DNA of 28,501 nt from Victivallales bacterium (lineage in GTDB: Bacteria; Verrucomicrobiota; Lentisphaeria; Oligosphaerales; Oligosphaeraceae). The stretch lies in assembly GCA_017964325.1 (NCBI GenBank), contig JAGCSE010000010.1:1-28501 (forward strand), in the 5' to 3' direction. Each line of letters begins with the position of its first letter. The first letter of the stretch is position 1. Below are positions 19,164 through 28,211 of this stretch, in pieces. The notes beneath the pieces are model-generated. The model did no database searches and was not told the DNA's origin. It saw nothing but the letters and a program-made list of their open reading frames with translations. A program made the translations under genes and the position numbers.

Positions 19164-19313
19164 TCATCTCCTTTTCCGTGCAGATGACGGTGCCATAACA
19201 TATCCCTTTTCCTCCAATTGATCCTTCGCCTCCACGCCTACCGCGTTCCACACGGCGACCGATGACAGGCATGGATCGGCTTCATCGGCTATAAAGGCTT
19301 TTCGGCTGTTATT
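19164..19313 (-). pseudogene. Orphan 49-codon frame, possible displaced gene 3' end
   Basis: The minus-strand frame has no start codon near its beginning but reads like real protein: KAFIADEADPCLSSVAVWNA, VGVEAKDQLEEKGYVMAPSS, ARKRR, then TGA. The stop lies three bases before the FHA-gene ATG, the usual spacing of adjacent genes in an operon. It is in a different frame from the kinase, which ends inside the first codon of this frame. It may be the old C-terminus of the kinase gene, or of a lost gene, cut off by the AT-rich duplicated module. The evidence is composition and position only. Confidence 0.35.
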
Positions 19314-20745
19314 CTATTGCAACGTTTAAAAACAAAACTGTCACAATCGGAAAAATAAACACGGTTGTAGCTTCCTCCAAAGTAACACTTCCAACTATAA
19401 CTCCAAATAAAGCCAAAAATGCGCACACAATTGCAACGTAGCCTTCAATTTTCATTATACTATGCCATTCAGATATTTTGCCAGAAATTTTCAAGTAGAA
19501 TGTTTCCGCAACTAAAAACAAAAATGCCACAATCGCTACAGAACTCGATACTACTATCGCTTCCTCTAAAGTAGCACCAGTAGCACCACCTCTTATAACT
19601 CCTATTAAAGAAATAAATGCAATCACAATTACAATGTAGCCCTCAATTTTCATTATATTACGCCATATACTATGCCATTCTGCTATTTTGCCAGAAGTTT
19701 TCGATGGAGCCGGAACCGACTGTGACTTAAGTTTTGCTTGTTGCGGAGACGGCTTCTCCACGATGACAGGGCTCGGCTGCGGAGTTGCCGCAGGAGGCGG
19801 CGTAACCTCAATCGGCGCGGGTGCGGGAGCGGCAGAAAGCGCCTCAGCGAACGCCGTGCAGTTCTCGAAACGGTCACCTGGCTTCTTCGCCAGCATCTTT
19901 TTCAACGCCGCGTTCATAGGAGCTGGCAGTTCCTTGATTTCTGGAACCTCCTCATAAATAACATTGTGCGCCAAAGCGATATCATTCGGGCCATTGAACG
20001 GACGCCTGCCGGCAAGCATCTCATACGCGACCGTCCCCAGCGCATACATATCCACCTCCATGCCGGGCTTCAGCGGCTCCGGGCTATCGCCGTACCTCAG
20101 TTCAAACAATTCCGGCGCCATATAGGCCGACGTCCCCTTAACCGCCCCAGAAGACACGCCCAGGCTGGCGGTGGTCGCCTGAATGTGGTAGCTCAGGCCG
20201 AAGTCCGTCAGTTTCAAGGAGTTGACTTTATCACCAATCTCGACCATCGTGTTCTCTGGCTTCACATCAGCATGGACGATATTTCTCTCATGCGCATGAT
20301 CCAAGGCCTCCGCCATGAGCCGTATGATTTTCAACGCTATCGCCTGACTGGGTTTTGGATTCTCCATCAGATAGTCCCTTAGAGTCTCGCCTTCCGCGTA
20401 GTCCATCACGATGTAGTACCGATACCCCCATTGGTCCATGACAAGATCCCGCACGGTCACGATGTTCGGATGGGTCAGAGCTTTCATAAGATTGCATTCT
20501 CTTATTAAGTCTTCCACCGCTTTCGGGTATTGATTCAGTATCTCATCGACCGTCTTCAAGGCCCTAGGTCCCCCCATCTTGCCAGTATCCTGAAAAAGGA
20601 ACACCTTCCCCATGGCGCCTTTCCCGAGCTTCCTCACGAACTTGTAACGCCCTGCCTTGTCAATGATGTCGCCCTCGTTGAACATGAGGGCCTTCACTCG
20701 CTGCGGTAAACCCATGCCAGTCGGTTTCGGTCTGTCGTCTTTCAT
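19309..20745 (-). CDS. Membrane-anchored Ser/Thr protein kinase with a duplicated C-terminal membrane module
   Basis: 478 residues. A Hanks-type kinase domain spans about 34-305: glycine loop LGKGAMGKVFL, Lys64 (RALK), catalytic loop HADVKPEN (Asp160, Asn165; HAD instead of HRD), DFG (Asp181), an activation segment rich in Ser/Thr, APE at 210-212 and DMYALGTVAYEMLAGRRPF. A Pro/Ala-rich linker covers about 305-350. The C-terminus holds two copies of a membrane module (351-415 and 421-478), each SGKI.EWHSI..MKIEGY followed by two hydrophobic helices. AGGA lies six or seven bases before the ATG. It is divergent from the ESCRT-III-like operon and upstream of the FHA gene. It most likely phosphorylates proteins of this locus at the membrane. 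The 3' 370 bases are visibly AT-richer than the kinase domain, suggesting a separate origin. Confidence 0.9.
   Translation of the reverse strand: MKDDRPKPTGMGLPQRVKALMFNEGDIIDKAGRYKFVRKLGKGAMGKVFLFQDTGKMGGPRALKTVDEILNQYPKAVEDLIRECNLMKALTHPNIVTVRDLVMDQWGYRYYIVMDYAEGETLRDYLMENPKPSQAIALKIIRLMAEALDHAHERNIVHADVKPENTMVEIGDKVNSLKLTDFGLSYHIQATTASLGVSSGAVKGTSAYMAPELFELRYGDSPEPLKPGMEVDMYALGTVAYEMLAGRRPFNGPNDIALAHNVIYEEVPEIKELPAPMNAALKKMLAKKPGDRFENCTAFAEALSAAPAPAPIEVTPPPAATPQPSPVIVEKPSPQQAKLKSQSVPAPSKTSGKIAEWHSIWRNIMKIEGYIVIVIAFISLIGVIRGGATGATLEEAIVVSSSVAIVAFLFLVAETFYLKISGKISEWHSIMKIEGYVAIVCAFLALFGVIVGSVTLEEATTVFIFPIVTVLFLNVAIE
19330..19700. repeat. Two diverged direct DNA repeats encoding the kinase membrane modules
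   Basis: About 19330-19495 and 19517-19700 align along most of their length, for example GTAGCTTCCTCCAAAGTA against ATCGCTTCCTCTAAAGTA, and CTTCAATTTTCATTATACTA against CTCAATTTTCATTATATTA. The second copy has a 12-base expansion that yields the extra WRNI residues. They make up the AT-rich 3' end of the kinase gene. Confidence 0.75.
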
Positions 20746-21518: not shown

Positions 21519-22091
21519 ATGACAGCGCCAGAATGGCTCATCAACACATTCATCCGCTTCGGCCTCAAAGACTCGGAGGAAAAACGGCTCAAACGCCGCA
21601 TTGCCGCCAGCCAGGAGAAAATTCGCTCCATCCGACAGCAGGCGGACAATATCGTGAACGAAATCAAGTCCATCGAAGCCGAATGCCGAGAGGCAAAGAC
21701 CGAATACGACGCCCTGCACGGCGTCGCCCGCGAGACGGTCCGCATCCGCATTGACAGCCTGCTTAAGGCACGTGAACGCTTTTCTGAAAGGAACGACTTG
21801 CTGGCCCAGCAACTGAACGCAGAAATGGCCATTCTCCAAGATCTCCAGCTTCGGCTGGATTATCAGCTTAGCCGTTCCCGCGATGAGTTGGAAGAAGCCA
21901 TAGATGAAAAGGACGATCTTGTCGCTGAGTTGGACGAAAATGAAAAAGTGGCTGATAGGCTGAAAAGGCCAACTTCCAGCAATTCCGCTAATAGCCCCAA
22001 AGCGGCTGACAAACAGGAAAGGACAACTTCAACCAATTCCACAGATAGTCCCAAAGACGACTACGACGAAAAATTCAAAGACTTCAACTAA
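21519..22091 (+). CDS. Coiled-coil protein, possible second ESCRT-III-like subunit or partner
   Basis: 190 residues with no signal peptide or clear transmembrane helix. An amphipathic N-terminal helix (PEWLINTFIRFGL) is followed by a basic segment (EEKRLKRRIAAS) and long helices to about residue 145. Their layout (basic first helix, long antiparallel hairpin at about 20-110, acidic helix DELEEAIDEKDDLVAELDEN) is similar to ESCRT-III/PspA architecture, but I see no diagnostic motif. The tail contains two 18-residue repeats (ADRLKRPTSSNSANSPKA and ADKQERTTSTNSTDSPKD), rich in Ser/Thr and thus possible kinase targets. AAGGAG lies eight bases before the ATG. It is the first gene of the plus-strand operon, 49 bases before the Snf7-like gene. 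Confidence 0.7.
   Translation: MTAPEWLINTFIRFGLKDSEEKRLKRRIAASQEKIRSIRQQADNIVNEIKSIEAECREAKTEYDALHGVARETVRIRIDSLLKARERFSERNDLLAQQLNAEMAILQDLQLRLDYQLSRSRDELEEAIDEKDDLVAELDENEKVADRLKRPTSSNSANSPKAADKQERTTSTNSTDSPKDDYDEKFKDFN
21951..22058 (+). repeat. 54-bp tandem repeat inside the coiled-coil gene
   Basis: Units 21951-22004 and 22005-22058 begin GCTGAtA and GCTGAcA and end AGCCCCAAAGCG and AGTCCCAAAGAC. They encode the two 18-residue Ser/Thr/Asn-rich repeats of the tail. Confidence 0.75.
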
Positions 22092-22140
22092 ACCTCCATT
22101 TAACCGACAAACTACCACCCAAACACAAAGGAACAAAACC

Positions 22141-22785
22141 ATGGCTATCTTCGACTGCTTCAAATCCGCAAAAGAACGTGAAAACGAAAAACGCCGCGAG
22201 GCGCGCCGCAACGAACGCAGGGTTGACCAGGACCTCGAAAATTTCGACGACAAAATAGCCGCATTGGTCAAACAGCGGGACGCCGCCTGGAGCCAGGCCC
22301 GCGAACTCCTCAAAAGCGGCCGTAAAGCCGACGCTCAACGCGCCCTCCTCTACTACAAGCGCTATGACCTGCTCATCGTCAAGCTTGAAAAACAGAAGGC
22401 CTTTCTGACCAGTCAAGCTGCGCAAATCCACTGCACGGGAAATGCAGCCGTCACGCTGGCCCACATCCGCAAGCTGGCCGCCGATCAGAACATCGATCCG
22501 GACACCCTCGCCGAGAACCTCGACGAAATTGATCTCATCACACAGGACATCGCCGACGGCGACAAGCAGATGAACGACGCCTTCGACCGCGACCTCGGCA
22601 ACATGGCCAAAGCCGAAGCCTCTTCCGAAATCCTCTACGAGGACGCCGACCTGATGGCCGCCTTGGAGAATGAATGCATCGCCGAAATCGACGGCCAGGC
22701 ACCCCCTTCGGAGAATACTTCCGACACGGCCGCCGGCATTGCCGAAGGCGCGGAACGTCTCAAGAAACTTCTCGGCGGAGAATAA
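22141..22785 (+). CDS. Snf7/CHMP-like ESCRT-III family protein
   Basis: 214 residues. ESCRT-III proteins polymerise on membranes and are remodelled by the AAA ATPase Vps4, whose likely counterpart is the next gene. The layout fits: a strongly basic first helix (about 8-30, KRREARRNERR), long helical hairpin (about 28-100) with ELLKSGRKADAQRALLYYKR like the CHMP 'Al.aLkrKKryE' segment, helices 3-4 (about 100-150), where NIDPDTLAENLDEID and TQDIADGDKQM resemble the CHMP4 'd.VdelMqDIadq' block. An acidic helix follows (YEDADLMAALENECIAEID, about 166-184), like the 'dEdELmaELe.l' helix 5. The last residues EGAERLKKLL resemble a MIM1 motif (RLxxL) that binds MIT domains. AAAGGA precedes the ATG. 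PspA/Vipp1 are the known bacterial members; this reads closer to eukaryotic Snf7. Homology is inferred from remembered motifs. Confidence 0.72.
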   Translation: MAIFDCFKSAKERENEKRREARRNERRVDQDLENFDDKIAALVKQRDAAWSQARELLKSGRKADAQRALLYYKRYDLLIVKLEKQKAFLTSQAAQIHCTGNAAVTLAHIRKLAADQNIDPDTLAENLDEIDLITQDIADGDKQMNDAFDRDLGNMAKAEASSEILYEDADLMAALENECIAEIDGQAPPSENTSDTAAGIAEGAERLKKLLGGE

Positions 22786-22812
22786 CCATACGGAAAGACA
22801 GGAGGCCCCTTC

Positions 22813-23916
22813 ATGAGCAATTTCCACTATAATAAAAAGATAGAGCATGAATCGGCTGCGGAAGTCGCCATCAAGCGTGAAGACTTCAACGCTGCTTTCA
22901 TCCATATCACCGAAGCCGCAAAACACACGCTCGCCCTCGCAAAGCAATGCACGGGCGACCTGGCGAAGGCGTATCTGCGGAACGCCAACGAACTGATGGA
23001 TTTGGCCGAAAAGAGCCGTTCAAAGGTGGCGGGAAGCAATGGCGTAACGGCGGACGGTGACAAGAAACAGTCCGCCGCCTCACGCTGCTGCCTTGTCGAA
23101 CGCCCATCCGTCCGTCTTGACGACGTGGCAGGCATGGACGATGTGAAACGGCAGATCCGCCTGCGGATGATCGAACCGCTCCAACATCCCGAAGAGGCCC
23201 AAAAACACGGTTTGAAAACGGGCGGCGGCATCCTGCTGTACGGTCCGCCCGGAACGGGCAAGACCTTCATCGCCAAGGCGGTGGCCGGTGAACTTGGGCT
23301 TCCGTTCTACACCATCACCCCCGCCGATGTCTTCGGCAAATATGTCGGCGAATCGGAGAACAACATCCGCGCCCTTTTCGCGGAGGCACGGAAGAACCCG
23401 CTCTCCATCGTCTTCATCGATGAACTAGAATCCATCTTCCGCAAACGGACGGCGGACATTCACGAAACGACACAAAAGGTCATCTCTGTCATACTCCAAG
23501 AGCTTGACGGCGTGAAAGACGGGAAGAACCCGTTCCTGCTCATGGGCGCGACGAACGCCCCGTGGCTCATCGACGAAGCCTTCCTTCGGACCGGCCGCTT
23601 TGATGTCAAGGCATACGTCGGACTTCCAGACCTGCCCGCCCGTGAACAGATCATCCGCAATGCGTTCAAAAACGTGGAATACCCCGTTGACGAAGACGCC
23701 ATCATGTATCTGGCTTCGGCTACAGGAAAATGCAGCGGCGCAGACATCAACGGCATTGTGCAGTGCATTCGCCAGACTGCCTTCGACCACCATCTCGACC
23801 ACTATACCATCGAACTTTTCCGCGAATGCACGAAGCATATCACGCCTTCCTGCAACGAGGAGACGCAGCGTAAAATCGAAGAATGGGAGAGGCAGAACGA
23901 AATCGTGGGTGAGTGA
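22813..23916 (+). CDS. MIT-like + Vps4-like AAA+ ATPase
   Basis: 367 residues; AGGAGG eight bases before the ATG. Residues about 10-72 look like an MIT three-helix bundle (AAEVAIKREDFNAAFIHITE, AYLRNANELMDLAEKSRSK). After a linker the AAA module opens with VERPSVRLDDVAGMDDVKRQ, the 'kP.v.w.DvaGl..aK' entry of the meiotic/Vps4 clade. Walker A is GPPGTGKT (Lys150), pore loop GKYVGESE (Tyr177), Walker B IVFIDE (Asp203, Glu204), sensor 1 GATN (Asn248), the arginine-finger region LRTGRFD and the small-domain signature SGADI (308-312). The C-terminal TPSCNEETQRKIEEW matches the Vps4 'rPsVs.e.l..yeeW' helix. The Vps4 beta-domain insert seems absent, and LRTGRFD is more katanin/FtsH-like. Placed 27 bases after the Snf7-like gene, it is its probable disassembly motor. 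Confidence 0.85.
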   Translation: MSNFHYNKKIEHESAAEVAIKREDFNAAFIHITEAAKHTLALAKQCTGDLAKAYLRNANELMDLAEKSRSKVAGSNGVTADGDKKQSAASRCCLVERPSVRLDDVAGMDDVKRQIRLRMIEPLQHPEEAQKHGLKTGGGILLYGPPGTGKTFIAKAVAGELGLPFYTITPADVFGKYVGESENNIRALFAEARKNPLSIVFIDELESIFRKRTADIHETTQKVISVILQELDGVKDGKNPFLLMGATNAPWLIDEAFLRTGRFDVKAYVGLPDLPAREQIIRNAFKNVEYPVDEDAIMYLASATGKCSGADINGIVQCIRQTAFDHHLDHYTIELFRECTKHITPSCNEETQRKIEEWERQNEIVGE

Positions 23917-24030
23917 ACTGCGGTGGAGACGGCGTTGCCATGGAGAGAAGGTGGAATGCCTTCACATTTTCTTGAATAAAACCTATTTACGGTGGGGAAG
24001 CACCGAACGCCGCCCAAGGGTGGCAGGCCG

Positions 24031-24088
24031 GGGAGGGCCGCGCTCCAATGCAGCGCTGATGATAATCCCGCAGGAGCGCGGCCCTCCC
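24031..24088. repeat. REP-like hairpin with perfect 16-bp arms
   Basis: GGGAGGGCCGCGCTCC (24031-24046) and GGAGCGCGGCCCTCCC (24073-24088) are perfect inverted repeats around a 26-base spacer. It lies in the 193-base gap between the ATPase and the next gene. It could attenuate transcription or protect mRNA between operon halves. It belongs to the same repeat family as 17739-17820 and 26416-26476. Confidence 0.8.
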
Positions 24089-24109
24089 GAAAACCAAAGG
24101 AACAAAACC

Positions 24110-24958
24110 ATGTTGTCCAAAATCTACAAATTCTTGAAAACAATCATGTTGATTATTGTTATCACCACTACAGCCATACGCATCCACAAGATGTTGATGC
24201 CGCTGGCGCCACCTGTGCCGCCGGAACGCGTCAAGGCGGTGGAAGAAATCGCCAAACGCTTCGTTGATGAATTGCGGAATCATCGTGGAAACGCCAAATC
24301 CGCAGTTGTCCTTCATCTGGACAACGACCCCACCCATTGCCTGACGCACGCCATCCGCCATCGCATCCGCGAGACTGGCATCCTCGCTTTGGCGGCTGAC
24401 TCTCTCAAGGAACGTCTTTTTACGGTCTTCAACCTGTCTTTCGACTGTTGCAAAGACGAACAAGAGGCTTTATGGCTGGCGGGAAACGCCCAGCAGGACT
24501 TGCTTATCTGGGGCGCCGTGGATCTTTTCGAGAGCGATGAAAAGGGCCGTCCCATCATCACTGGAAAACTGCATGTCATTGATGCCAAAACTCTTGAACT
24601 CATTTTCACCTTTCCACTTGACGACAAGCCAGAACTACTTAACATGCAATCATCAGAAATTGCCCACATGCAGAATGCAGGATTTTCCCTGCCATCCCGC
24701 CTGACCTCCCTCCTGTTGATGATTAGCTTTCTGTCATTGATGCTGTTCCCAAATATCCGAAAACTTGCCGCCAAACGATCCAACAACATCAATCTCGTGA
24801 TGCTGGTCCTCCTTTCCGCCATCGACACCGCACTGGCAACCGCATTGATTGGCGCCACAGGTTTCCTGCCGCTCCATTGGTTCCTGCCAATCGCCGCCTT
24901 GCTCATCGTCATCTACAATCTCATGCTTCTCAACCATGCCACCCGCCTGGAAATGTAA
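24110..24958 (+). CDS. Multi-pass membrane protein with a TolB-N/CsgG-like extracytoplasmic domain
   Basis: 282 residues from the ATG at 24110 (AAAGGA upstream, the same leader as the Snf7-like gene). A much longer frame reaching back to 23600 overlaps the ATPase and is rejected. The first helix is residues 10-27 (KTIMLIIVITTTAIRI). A soluble domain follows at about 40-170: AKSAVVLHLDND, an AIRHRIRETGILAL helix, a DSLKERLFTVF segment, AQQDLLIWGAVDLFES and TGKLHVIDAKTLELIF. The order 'avv.l...l...i+..l...g', 'aD.liwG.v', 'l.viDa.T.eli' is that of TolB-N/FlgO/CsgG-like domains. Three more helices lie at about 199-215, 228-250 and 255-275, with a positive loop (RKLAAKRS) placing the domain outside the cytoplasm. 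It may link the ESCRT-III machinery to the envelope. Confidence 0.65.
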   Translation: MLSKIYKFLKTIMLIIVITTTAIRIHKMLMPLAPPVPPERVKAVEEIAKRFVDELRNHRGNAKSAVVLHLDNDPTHCLTHAIRHRIRETGILALAADSLKERLFTVFNLSFDCCKDEQEALWLAGNAQQDLLIWGAVDLFESDEKGRPIITGKLHVIDAKTLELIFTFPLDDKPELLNMQSSEIAHMQNAGFSLPSRLTSLLLMISFLSLMLFPNIRKLAAKRSNNINLVMLVLLSAIDTALATALIGATGFLPLHWFLPIAALLIVIYNLMLLNHATRLEM

Positions 24959-24993
24959 CTTTTCATTCCAGTTTCATGACAAATACCATGTTC

Positions 24994-25021
24994 TTGATAT
25001 TTTTCCTTTATATGCTATTTT
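24994..25021 (+). promoter_or_regulatory. Putative promoter of the sigma factor gene
   Basis: TTGATA (24994-24999), 16 bases, TATTTT (25016-25021), about 50 bases before the sigma gene ATG in an AT-rich 109-base gap. A separate promoter would let the sigma/anti-sigma pair be expressed apart from the upstream genes. Confidence 0.35.
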
Positions 25022-25067
25022 TTTGTTATTTAAAATTTTATCACAAACACGCCCCGAGGTCACGCAC

Positions 25068-25712
25068 ATGGCAGAAAACGACGAACTGGAAGATAAAATC
25101 AAGAAGAACAAGGAAAAATTCAGAACCAAAGTCCGTCTTTTGTACGCGGGCGACAATGCCGAATGGGAGGTTGTTTACGAAGAGGTTGTACTCGTCGGCT
25201 TGCGCTTCCATACGAAAAACGGGCATTGCCTTGGAAAAATCATCAAGAACCGGGGCTTGAGCGAATATGATGTCCTCAGCGAACTTTATAAATTGATGAT
25301 CGTTGAAGAAAAACTGGATCTTTACGCATATCGCGGTGACCTTTATGCCTGGATGCGTAATTACGTCAAAGAAATTGTCCTACGCATCTGCAAGGGTCCT
25401 GCCATTGCCACCGATCCAGATGATATTGACGATACTGCTGATGACATTCATGATGAAGCTGAAAATTCATCGGACATGTCAGAAATGGACGCTTTGGAAC
25501 ACGCATTCGCCGAGCTATTCAAGACCAACCCGGAAGGTGCATTCATCCTGCTTCTCCATGAACGGGAGGGGTTGACTTCCAACGCCATCTGCGATGTGCT
25601 GGGGCTGCCTCACGACAAATCCCACATCAACCATGTGGACAATGCCTCCCGGCAGGCCCTGGAGGAAATCAAAAGAATCTTGAAACAACAAAAAAATCAT
25701 CATAAGGAATAA
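25068..25712 (+). CDS. ECF-like RNA polymerase sigma factor
   Basis: 214 residues from the ATG at 25068, preceded by GAGGT. A longer frame begins in the membrane-protein gene and is rejected. Residues about 25-105 fit sigma region 2: an aromatic-rich AEWEVVYEEVVLVG, then SEYDVLSELYKLMI and RGDLYAWMRNYVKEIVLRI, the last resembling the '..l..Wl..iarn...' helix. An acidic linker (about 115-140) leads to region 4 at about 142-205 (ALEHAFAELF, FILLLHEREGLTSNAICDVL, the helix-turn-helix, then SRQALEEIKRIL). The overall match to the family is diffuse but the architecture and the adjoining zinc-finger anti-sigma-like gene, five bases downstream, support it. It probably controls a regulon that may include this locus. 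Confidence 0.65.
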   Translation: MAENDELEDKIKKNKEKFRTKVRLLYAGDNAEWEVVYEEVVLVGLRFHTKNGHCLGKIIKNRGLSEYDVLSELYKLMIVEEKLDLYAYRGDLYAWMRNYVKEIVLRICKGPAIATDPDDIDDTADDIHDEAENSSDMSEMDALEHAFAELFKTNPEGAFILLLHEREGLTSNAICDVLGLPHDKSHINHVDNASRQALEEIKRILKQQKNHHKE

Positions 25713-25717
25713 AAAAC

Positions 25718-26407
25718 ATGTCCAAATGCCTGACTTCAATTCAACTGCTCCGCGCCATGGTGGAACCGACGGCGCCGGAAAACGCGGCTATCATGGCCCA
25801 CCTGTACGCTTGCGACAAATGCCTGAACGAATTACGCGAATGGCAGGAAGGCCTGGAAAACGCCGAATACATCCCGCAGCCGGGCGACGATGAAGCAGCC
25901 GCCAATGCAGTCAAATCCGTCCTGGAACAGCATTCCGCCTGGAAACGTTTCTGGAACACCTGTCAAAATTTCCTGTCAGGCTTCCGGTCGTTCTCCACGC
26001 TGGGCGCCATGCAGCCGGTCTTTGCAGGTGCTCGCCATCATCCTCCCCAGATAAGAACTGTCACCCAACAGCCTGTTTTCCACTTTGACTCCCGCCACGA
26101 CTCCGACACTCCTCGAATATACGAATGGCATGCCGTCATGACGCTACCCATGAGCGCCACCCCTGCCTCGGACATCCGCATCGACATCGTCTTTCCATCC
26201 CTTCCCCAAGGCGCATCCGTGCCGGAGAAACTCTCCTTCCAAGGCAAGGTCCTAACCATCGAAGACGGCAAAACCACAATCACTTGCAAGGAGTTTTATG
26301 ACTCCATAAGGACTGAAGACACAAAAAGAAAGAACGGTGAAATCTATGTGGATTTCGTTTTGGACAACGGACAGCCAAAACGAGTATATGGCGACCCAAA
26401 ACCTTGA
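25718..26407 (+). CDS. Zinc-finger anti-sigma-like protein
   Basis: 229 residues, starting five bases after the sigma gene stop with AAGGA upstream. The N-terminus has the anti-sigma zinc-binding motif HxxxCxxC at His28, Cys32, Cys35 (MAHLYACDKC) with Cys4 as possible fourth ligand, inside a helical region (about 8-45). No transmembrane helix is evident, so it would act in the cytoplasm. Residues about 120-229 form a beta-rich domain of unknown type (DIRIDIVFPSLPQGA, VLTIEDGKTTITC, GEIYVDFVLD). ZAS-domain proteins hold ECF sigma factors inactive until a signal arrives. Here the signal could pass through the beta domain. Confidence 0.65.
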   Translation: MSKCLTSIQLLRAMVEPTAPENAAIMAHLYACDKCLNELREWQEGLENAEYIPQPGDDEAAANAVKSVLEQHSAWKRFWNTCQNFLSGFRSFSTLGAMQPVFAGARHHPPQIRTVTQQPVFHFDSRHDSDTPRIYEWHAVMTLPMSATPASDIRIDIVFPSLPQGASVPEKLSFQGKVLTIEDGKTTITCKEFYDSIRTEDTKRKNGEIYVDFVLDNGQPKRVYGDPKP

Positions 26408-26415
26408 CATGATTC

Positions 26416-26476
26416 GGGAGGAGCGCGCTCCTGCGCGACCGCATACGATGGGAGGGACGCGCTCCTGCGCGACCGC
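26416..26476. repeat. REP-like tandem pair
   Basis: Two 27-base units at 26416-26442 and 26450-26476 (GGGAGgaGCGCGCTCCTGCG and GGGAGggACGCGCTCCTGCG, both followed by CGACCGC) differ at two positions. The first contains the perfect 14-bp palindrome AGGAGCGCGCTCCT (26419-26432). They lie between the anti-sigma gene and the peptidase gene. Confidence 0.8.
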
Positions 26477-26558
26477 CACGCCGTTGGTGCGGCATCCACC
26501 ACGCATATATGCCCCATAAAGGCGCCAAGAACATAGCCAGTACATTAACAGACACCCC

Positions 26559-28211
26559 ATGAATCCAACCGAACTGGACATCTCCTTCCTCCCGCGCCGC
26601 AACCAAGGCGATCGCGGTACCTGCATGGCCTTCGCAGTCTGCTCCCTTCTGGAATACTATTTCCATGTCCACGGAGACAACGTCCGCTTGAGCCCCCAAT
26701 ATCTTTACGCCCGATGCAAGCAGGCGGACCAAGACAGCCAACGTGCGGGAATCCACCTCGAAACAGCCTTCGACACGGCTAAACGCTTCGGTGTCTGCAA
26801 GGAGACGGACTGGCCGTACAATCCCTCCCACACGCCCGCTTCCGGCATGGAGGATGAGATTGAAATCTTGATGCAAACCCAGCTGGAACGCTTGAAACAA
26901 TTGCCAACAGTCGATTGCCTTGAAATCCTTGGCAACGAACATCGCCACATGCTTCTCACGCCAAGCAGCTTGGACGAATGCAAAGCCGCCTTGGACGGAA
27001 CCGGTGGATTCCGACCCATGCCCGTCGTCATCGGCTGCAAGGTATTCCCTTCCGTCTTGGAAAAAATCTCCCGGGATGGCTGGCTCCATTGGCCGTTGAA
27101 AGGAGAAGACCCATATCTGGCGGATGGGCACGCCATGCTCGTCGTCGGATACCAAGACACGCCAGAACTCAAATCCAAAGGATATTTCTTGGCATTGAAC
27201 AGTTGGGGGCCTTCCTTCCATGATGAAGAAGGCCATGAAGGCATGGTCAAAATCCCATACGAATACTATAGACAATACGTCACAGCGGCTGGAACCATCC
27301 GCGAAGAACTGGATGGAAACGACACGGAACAACCTAATTTTCAAGCTGCTCGCCAAGACAGTGAAACGACTGAGTCTATGATAAATCATACTGACAATCA
27401 TCAACCGCCTTCTGCCGCCATGGCAAATCTTTCGGATGTTTTTTTCGCTTCTCTGGAAACAAATCTCAACAGTCCGTCCTATAAGCTTCCGTATGATTTG
27501 TTCCAAATCAAGCCATGGATTCGATATTCTGCCAAGCCCATGCCGCCACAAGACGCAACCAGGCTTTTCTTGGGCTTCGTCCGTGAAAACTGCAAGTCGG
27601 ATCATGCACCGCAAGCGTCAGTCAAAGTCTATCCACTGTGCAAAGACAGTTCCTTCCGTCTTGTCGCCGCCGCTCTTTCCCATGACGACGGCTCATCAGT
27701 CACCACGGCGGACATCATCTGCCTCCGTGATTTCATCCGCAGGCGAGTGGCAAGAAACGGGCTGCATGATGTCCTCGTAATCGCCGCCAATGTCTTCGAC
27801 ATCAATGTCCAGCCTGTCCTGTCGCCGCCCGTCCTCCTTTGCAGGCCTCGCACCGACGGTTTGTGGGACTTTCAATTACCGCAGACTGCCTTTTCAGAAG
27901 AAAGCATTCAGTTCCTCCTACATGTCCTGCCAGGCATGGCCGAAGCGTACGCCGACCGGCTGGAGGCTTTGATTAACCATTGGCCCACAACAACATACTG
28001 CACAAAGGACGCCCTGCGTCCGAAACTCGCTCTCCATCCCTCCATTCCGGATGCCTTCTTCGTCCACTGGCTGAATGCGCTTTTCGAACGCGCCGCCCAT
28101 TCAAAAGACAAGAACGACTGGTACGCGAAGTATGACCGTGGCGTTATCTATCCCCCCGGCGCCGAACTACCGGAAGGGCATGGCGCAAAACGCGTCAAGC
28201 GGTTTGCATAG
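26559..28211 (+). CDS. Papain-fold (C1) cysteine peptidase with an unknown C-terminal domain
   Basis: 550 residues, no signal peptide and no clear Shine-Dalgarno sequence. Residues 1-252 form a C1A peptidase: oxyanion Gln16 and nucleophile Cys22 in RNQGDRGTCMAFAVCS, an LSPQYLYARC helix, catalytic His191 in DGHAMLVVGYQD and Asn214 in LALNSWG. All are intact and no propeptide precedes them, as in other bacterial cytoplasmic C1 peptidases. A polar linker (about 253-285) leads to a domain of about 265 residues that I do not recognise (KPWIRYSAKPMPPQDATRLF, SVKVYPLCKDSSFRLVAAAL, LHDVLVIAANVFDINVQPVL). It may recognise substrate or partner. It lies 151 bases after the anti-sigma gene and may belong to the same module, or may be independent. 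Confidence 0.85.
   Translation: MNPTELDISFLPRRNQGDRGTCMAFAVCSLLEYYFHVHGDNVRLSPQYLYARCKQADQDSQRAGIHLETAFDTAKRFGVCKETDWPYNPSHTPASGMEDEIEILMQTQLERLKQLPTVDCLEILGNEHRHMLLTPSSLDECKAALDGTGGFRPMPVVIGCKVFPSVLEKISRDGWLHWPLKGEDPYLADGHAMLVVGYQDTPELKSKGYFLALNSWGPSFHDEEGHEGMVKIPYEYYRQYVTAAGTIREELDGNDTEQPNFQAARQDSETTESMINHTDNHQPPSAAMANLSDVFFASLETNLNSPSYKLPYDLFQIKPWIRYSAKPMPPQDATRLFLGFVRENCKSDHAPQASVKVYPLCKDSSFRLVAAALSHDDGSSVTTADIICLRDFIRRRVARNGLHDVLVIAANVFDINVQPVLSPPVLLCRPRTDGLWDFQLPQTAFSEESIQFLLHVLPGMAEAYADRLEALINHWPTTTYCTKDALRPKLALHPSIPDAFFVHWLNALFERAAHSKDKNDWYAKYDRGVIYPPGAELPEGHGAKRVKRFA

Follow-up and report, generated by a model that had tools for sequence, protein, structure and literature searches.

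A bacterial gene cluster that pairs a Snf7-type ESCRT-III-like protein with an AAA ATPase carrying a predicted MIT-like N-terminus

The DNA analyzed here (the window, i.e., the whole stretch of 28,501 nucleotides from contig JAGCSE010000010.1 of the Victivallales bacterium assembly GCA_017964325.1) carries seven genes on one strand at positions 21519 to 28211 (intergenic gaps, 49, 27, 193, 109, 5, and 151 bp). They encode, in order, a coiled-coil protein, a Snf7-like protein, an AAA ATPase, a protein with four transmembrane (TM) segments, a sigma-like factor, an anti-sigma-like protein, and a papain-like protease. The window is bacterial judging from its other genes (e.g., MurG-like and prepilin-peptidase-like frames, recognized by eye in the translations), and its closest named relatives are metagenome-assembled genomes from ruminants, two of which are named Victivallales bacterium. 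The main subject of this report is the Snf7-like gene and the ATPase gene that lies 27 bp downstream, both on the + strand. An earlier note made from the sequence alone (i.e., the original prediction) had read them as a bacterial ESCRT-III gene (ESCRT, endosomal sorting complex required for transport) next to a Vps4-like ATPase gene, and both reading frames and their close pairing were found exactly as it gave them. The features of the pair are as follows:

22141..22785, + strand: ESCRT-III-like protein of the Snf7 type, 214 amino acids (aa), ATG start
22168..22437, + strand: predicted hairpin of helices 1 and 2, residues 10 to 99 (AlphaFold2 model)
22645..22689, + strand: acidic helix 5, residues 169 to 183, DLMAALENE region, conserved
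22744..22782, + strand: C-terminal tail helix, residues 202 to 214, candidate MIT-binding motif, conserved
22813..23916, + strand: AAA ATPase with an MIT-like N-terminus, 367 aa, ATG start (Pfam AAA, 2.2e-39)
22813..23040, + strand: MIT-like three-helix domain, ATPase residues 1 to 76 (predicted fold)

A profile built from 25 diverse homologues of the 214-residue protein had SNF7 as its top PDB match (2.8e-9) and also matched the yeast Snf7 core (1.2e-8), Asgard ESCRT-IIIB (6.3e-4), and Asgard ESCRT-III (0.0025). These matches to Snf7 and Asgard ESCRT-III span nearly the whole length of the family, and PspA/Vipp1 was not among the 26 PDB rows obtained. The adjoining coiled-coil family served as a natural control; run against the same PDB library, it retrieved GCN4, tropomyosin, and designed and other generic coiled coils, with no ESCRT-III protein among the best 60 of 100 rows. 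The Pfam Snf7 model was matched at an E value of ≤1 by 22 of the 25 diverse members (best, 8.7e-9) and by 16 of 18 close homologues (best, 2.8e-7), while PspA_IM30 (PF04012) was not among the best 25 of 100 family rows for the 25 members, so that at most one member could match it. The window protein alone matched Snf7 and Sp-DndD in Pfam at the same threshold and nothing else. Since the homologues match Pfam Snf7 and their profile ranks Snf7 first in the PDB, the likeness is more than a chance resemblance. On these comparisons, which bear out what had been proposed from the order of the protein's segments, the 214-residue protein is a relative of Snf7-type ESCRT-III.

The AlphaFold2 model of this protein (mean predicted local distance difference test [pLDDT] score, 65) places helices at residues 10 to 58, 62 to 99, 102 to 115, 120 to 127, 130 to 160, 169 to 183, and 196 to 211, i.e., in the helix order of ESCRT-III (a hairpin followed by helices 3 to 5). 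With this model as the Foldseek query, rows 1 to 21 were all proteins of the ESCRT-III superfamily, none of them with an E value of <0.001. On the structural check named in the original prediction, the helical hairpin was modeled and ESCRT-III proteins came first, at a low model score and with E values above that level. Among 18 homologues, helix 5 has the highest mean majority-residue frequency (0.87) of the five helices compared, and the C-terminal tail helix is better conserved than the linker preceding it (0.85 versus 0.50). A tail-helix pattern of our own design occurs in 19 of the 27 family members.

The N-terminus of the ATPase is modeled as a three-helix bundle at a pLDDT of 91.7, and its top PDB matches are VPS4 MIT domains. 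Ten of the first 12 Foldseek rows are MIT-domain entries, with VPS4 on top; these include 4a5x, 2w2u, and 5fvl, MIT-domain entries whose titles do not name the domain. In addition, the ATPases of L036 and L037 (two of the loci compared below) align with the model of CdvC, the archaeal counterpart, through the N-terminal MIT-like region, the latter from residues 16 to 366 against model positions 19 to 365 (191.5 bits). On the basis of fold and gene context, we predict that the ATPase N-terminus has the MIT fold. Variants of this region were also observed. The 332-aa ATPase of L043 (15693 to 16691) has approximately 35 fewer residues between its MIT-like and AAA parts than the 368-aa protein of L002, while two close AAA paralogues of approximately 490 aa (P0073 and P0087) have no MIT-like domain and carry instead a long N-terminal hydrophobic stretch that reads like several TM segments.

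In the motor module, the Walker A (GPPGTGKT), Walker B (FIDE), and pore loop (GKYVGESE) motifs and the second region of homology (GATNAPWLIDEAFLRTGRFD) are intact. Sensor 1 is followed by NAPW, as in Vps4 or nearly so, but GRFD is present where Vps4 has RRF. The IEEW sequence that had been pointed out near the C terminus is present. In a more distant lineage, seven loci have SKW[HY]GESE as the pore loop. The Pfam Vps4_C model gave weak matches, below the cut-off, in three of seven C-terminal pieces, all three from more distant members (L032, 0.092; L037, 0.022; L038, 0.006).

Other motor types were seen in some loci. At L039 (9264 to 10995), the Snf7-like gene is followed by an ATPase gene whose product combines an MIT-like N-terminus with a SpoVK/CbbX-type motor (TIGR02881, 301.2 bits), i.e., an apparent motor swap as judged from sequence. 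Eight proteins examined from the P0139 to P0184 range belong to the Snf7-like subtype of this locus. Three further ATPases of 741 to 1,006 aa (L028, 5962 to 8982; L029, 5872 to 8262; L030, 941 to 3166) contain two P-loops and consist of an MIT-like part and two AAA-type modules.

We compared the window with 21 other loci (L002, L003, and 19 genome stretches, one of which is the contig of L001). This set is partly redundant: L002 and L003 encode an identical Snf7-like protein, and L001, L004, L007, and L043 are one contig. The 22 loci, window included, contain 27 Snf7-like genes. A same-strand AAA gene with an MIT-like N-terminus was found in 20 of the 21 other loci and is directly adjacent in 16; with the window counted, 21 of the 22 loci are paired, and 17 of these 21 pairs are adjacent (within 120 bp). 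In L032, L034, L038, and L040, the ATPase gene lies 0.7 to 3.6 kb downstream of the Snf7-like gene, and the contig of the only locus with no paired ATPase (L059) stops 32 bp past the Snf7-like gene. The pairing described for the window is therefore not a one-off, and a Snf7-like gene together with an MIT-type AAA gene is a conserved arrangement. An MIT-like profile built from 18 of these ATPases was matched at ≤8.7e-28 by four ATPases outside it, two of which are near copies of L002 (L003 and L043) and two of which are not copies (L060 and L061). The protein distances of the two partners were correlated (Mantel r = 0.76; P = 0.0001; 20 pairs, excluding the near copy L003 and L061, whose ATPase is cut by the contig end, with ATPases trimmed to their first 380 residues), a correlation that shared descent alone could produce. 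The family is patchy; Snf7-like matches occurred in 16 of the 387 phylum genomes sampled and in 14 of the 197 class genomes. One locus, L029 (G258:C5:16679-26082), contains four Snf7-like and two MIT-type AAA genes within approximately 10 kb.

The remaining genes of the cluster are as follows:

21519..22091, + strand: coiled-coil partner, 190 aa; family found in 19 of the 21 other loci by iterated profile
24110..24958, + strand: membrane protein, 282 aa; by hydropathy, one N-terminal and three C-terminal hydrophobic segments flank a soluble domain
25068..25712, + strand: divergent sigma-70-family factor (extracytoplasmic function-like), 214 aa; assigned via homologues, start codon picked by eye
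25718..26407, + strand: anti-sigma-like protein, 229 aa; H-x3-C-x2-C motif (HLYACDKC at residue 28)
26559..28211, + strand: papain-like cysteine protease, 550 aa; Pfam Peptidase_C1, 4.9e-11; GTCMAFA, DGHA, and NSWG motifs

The count for the coiled-coil family rests on iterated profiles, which can drift for coiled coils, and its member in L040 lies only inside an unlikely 895-aa frame. Its PDB matches are generic coiled coils, and its alignment with the ESCRT-III-like family reached hhalign probabilities of 36 and 46% (15% in another run); the protein is possibly a second, very divergent ESCRT-III-like subunit. The four-TM family was found in 18 of the 21 other loci by iterated profile, and a distant member (L035, 13109 to 14257) matches LpoB at 2.9e-6. 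The sigma-like protein of the window itself had no sigma family match in Pfam. Of three homologues scanned, those of L028 and L030 matched Sigma70_r4_2 (8.4e-7 and 9.8e-5, the latter under its cut-off) and that of L033 had no family match; such homologues occur in seven of the 21 other loci. The H-x3-C-x2-C motif, which we assume to mark an anti-sigma-like protein, occurs at residues 27 to 33 in all five genes checked at the same position after the sigma-like gene. Sigma-like and papain-like genes accompany the core in seven of the other loci (L028, L029, L030, L033, L041, L060, and L061); six of these have a scored anti-sigma-like homologue (6 of the 21), and L033 has one by position and motif. 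L002, L003, and L043 carry only a shorter relative of the papain-like protein, while 11 of the 21 have neither a sigma-like nor a papain-like gene.

We propose, with a probability of roughly 0.68, that the cluster encodes a bacterial ESCRT-III/Vps4-like pair with a role in reshaping or repairing the cytoplasmic membrane. In eukaryotic cells, filaments of the related ESCRT-III proteins pinch membranes, and MIT-type docking domains serve the ATPases that pull these filaments apart. By analogy with known ESCRT systems, the ESCRT-III-like protein would form polymers on the inner membrane, where the coiled-coil protein may cap them or serve as a second subunit; docking of the conserved C-terminal tail helix into the MIT-like domain would recruit the ATPase; and filament turnover would follow as the ATPase hexamer pulls subunits through its pore. 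The four-TM protein may be a membrane anchor or sensor, and the papain-like protease may be a processing or release enzyme of the pathway. The sigma-like and anti-sigma-like regulators suggest induction by envelope stress, under which this pair would turn the cluster on. The likely role is thus stress-induced, ATP-driven membrane remodeling. A broader proposal, which we advance tentatively and rate somewhat below an even chance, is that a complete native ESCRT-III/IV machine exists in Lentisphaeria and related lineages. In it, Snf7-type filaments would be driven by an MIT-tethered AAA motor and controlled through a sigma factor; the MIT coupling would be the conserved core, whereas the motor would have been exchanged (Cdc48/FtsH/CdvC-type in most loci and SpoVK/CbbX-type in L039). 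If true, such a machine would supply the powered partner so far missing from the field's picture of bacterial ESCRT-III.

Several results weigh against an ESCRT-III/Vps4-like pair. The window protein alone matches Pfam Snf7 as its top family only at 0.0028, under the curated cut-off, and although the Snf7 core superposes on its model with a root mean square deviation of 1.2 to 1.3 over 78 to 81 residues, unrelated helical folds do equally well by Z score. The strict MIM1 pattern is present in none of the 27 family members. For the ATPase N-terminus, the fold search alone pointed to MIT: the Pfam MIT model matched none of 18 N-termini, and a PDB profile search returned 16 rows with no MIT domain among them (i.e., designed helical proteins, TPR proteins such as HOP, a dehydratase, and a weak CHMP1B row at an E value of 1.2). 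The MIT-like N-terminus of the original prediction is supported as a predicted fold and is not matched by the Pfam MIT model. Its placement of the motor in the Vps4/meiotic clade was not established. In NCBIfam, whose scores were the basis for judging AAA affiliation, FtsH (181.7 bits), CDC48 (180.8), and PAN (168.1) outscore archaeal CdvC (156.1), which is the fifth model behind FtsH, CDC48, and two PAN models, and a scan of the final 100 residues of the window ATPase did not reveal the Pfam Vps4_C helix.

The under-cut-off Pfam match, the low model score of the 214-residue protein, and the failure of sequence searches to find MIT would also fit another reading, in which a coiled-coil adaptor unrelated to Snf7 resembles it through composition and the ATPase is a general AAA unfoldase whose N-terminus is TPR-like. 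We consider this quite improbable, since the family profile matches Snf7 and Asgard ESCRT-III near full length when the neighboring coiled-coil family finds no such protein among its best 60 of 100 rows, and since the leading Foldseek rows are ESCRT-III proteins. A role in cell division, like that of CdvB/CdvC in archaea, seems the least probable of the alternatives. Archaeal ESCRT-III/Vps4 pairs act in division according to the available text of PMC7615534, and four of 20 family-bearing genomes have no FtsZ match at 1e-10. However, the other 16 have an FtsZ-family match (all below the curated cut-off, one at only 6.6e-12, in genomes of unstated completeness), which argues against replacement of the division machinery; the patchy distribution of the family and the stress-type regulators in part of the loci also count against a division role.

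The cluster could instead be a conflict or anti-phage defense module, with the AAA ATPase acting together with the papain-like protease (trypsin-like in the other lineage) and with the ESCRT-III-like filament as a sensor or membrane-damaging scaffold; we regard this as unlikely, if less so than an adaptor or a division role. IetA works with a protease partner, and the IetAS anti-phage system resembles the cluster in linking an AAA ATPase with a protease gene, but we know of no ESCRT-III-like gene in IetAS. With PADLOC IetA models, the window ATPase scores up to 126.7 bits, and with the NCBIfam IteA model, it reaches 111.2 bits (curated cut-off, 510); these scores are below those of FtsH, CDC48, PAN, and CdvC. 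Kinase genes lie near the cluster in the window and in six of the 21 other loci (L032, L034, L035, L037, L038, and L039), and two genes upstream of the Snf7-like gene in L039 is a DUF4011 helicase gene with an MTES_1575 nuclease domain. However, no other gene at 21519 to 28211 has a strong PADLOC match (the next best is LmuB at 0.003, for the coiled-coil protein), and neither 50,697 phage records nor viral contigs scanned with a pattern yielded a relative of the Snf7-like protein, a result that bears on carriage by phages only.

The proposed ESCRT-III/Vps4-like pair shares with archaeal and eukaryotic systems (i.e., Snf7/CHMP, CdvB-CdvC, and Asgard) a Snf7-type gene beside an ATPase of predicted MIT fold and, in some genomes, several ESCRT-III-like paralogues (four in G258). 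It differs from them in its bacterial host, in an AAA module that is not resolved to Vps4, in having no strict MIM1 match, and in its sigma-like, anti-sigma-like, and papain-like genes. Like PspA/Vipp1 (PspA_IM30), the Snf7-like family represents the ESCRT-III superfamily in bacteria, in what is probably also a membrane stress context, but its profile matches Snf7 rather than PspA/Vipp1. PspA was over the cut-off in none of 20 family-bearing genomes, which says little because PspA is rare in this group anyway (38 of 387 phylum genomes and 12 of 197 class genomes). Replacement of PspA by the Snf7-like family was considered and dropped: PspA was over the cut-off in none of the 16 phylum genomes with a Snf7-like match, but only approximately 1.6 would be expected to have it, so that this absence says little as well.

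The claim that bacterial ESCRT-III relatives work without an AAA partner of this kind was too strong. The relevant section of PMC11237479 reports bacterial PspA/Snf7 clade members adjoining AAA ATPases: PspA occurs with a partner that has two AAA copies, the first of them inactive, and Snf7 homologues that carry a TM segment are encoded near genes for an AAA ATPase and transporters. It also reports bacterial Vps4-like ATPases in settings where a gene for an unrelated TPR/6TM protein has taken the place of snf7. Those systems resemble ours in having a classical AAA gene next to ESCRT-III superfamily genes in bacteria, but that section describes no MIT-AAA gene beside a Snf7-type bacterial gene. 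As judged from sequence, a bacterial Snf7-type gene and an MIT-type ATPase gene, two halves reported apart, are joined here in one conserved cluster; no description of such a pair was found in the accessible part of the open-license PubMed Central literature. In their available text, PMC10936438 says that archaea, but not bacteria, have identifiable ESCRT homologues, and PMC8281802 leaves open whether PspA has its Vps4 counterpart in PspF and whether an equivalent ATPase exists for Vipp1; a bacterial Snf7-type gene linked to an MIT-type ATPase gene bears on both questions. Some bacteria thus likely have their own powered membrane-remodeling machine, of a type usually credited to archaea and eukaryotes only. 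Being small and cloneable, the pair could be used to reconstitute filament, docking tail, and motor together, and the SpoVK/CbbX-type motor of L039 would test whether the docking module outweighs the motor.

In a locus of the second lineage (L035, 16761 to 18356 and neighbors), the Snf7-like and AAA genes are accompanied by genes for SPFH/Band_7-zinc ribbon, FHA, trypsin-like, and LpoB-like proteins; an SPFH-family protein has been reported in archaeal Meth_adaptin ESCRT systems (available text of PMC10936438). Elsewhere in the window, a 445-aa gene product has no kin among the genes of the other loci at 1e-3, and a gene at 19309 to 20745 (- strand), divergent from the cluster, encodes a Ser/Thr protein kinase whose C-terminal part contains four hydrophobic segments.
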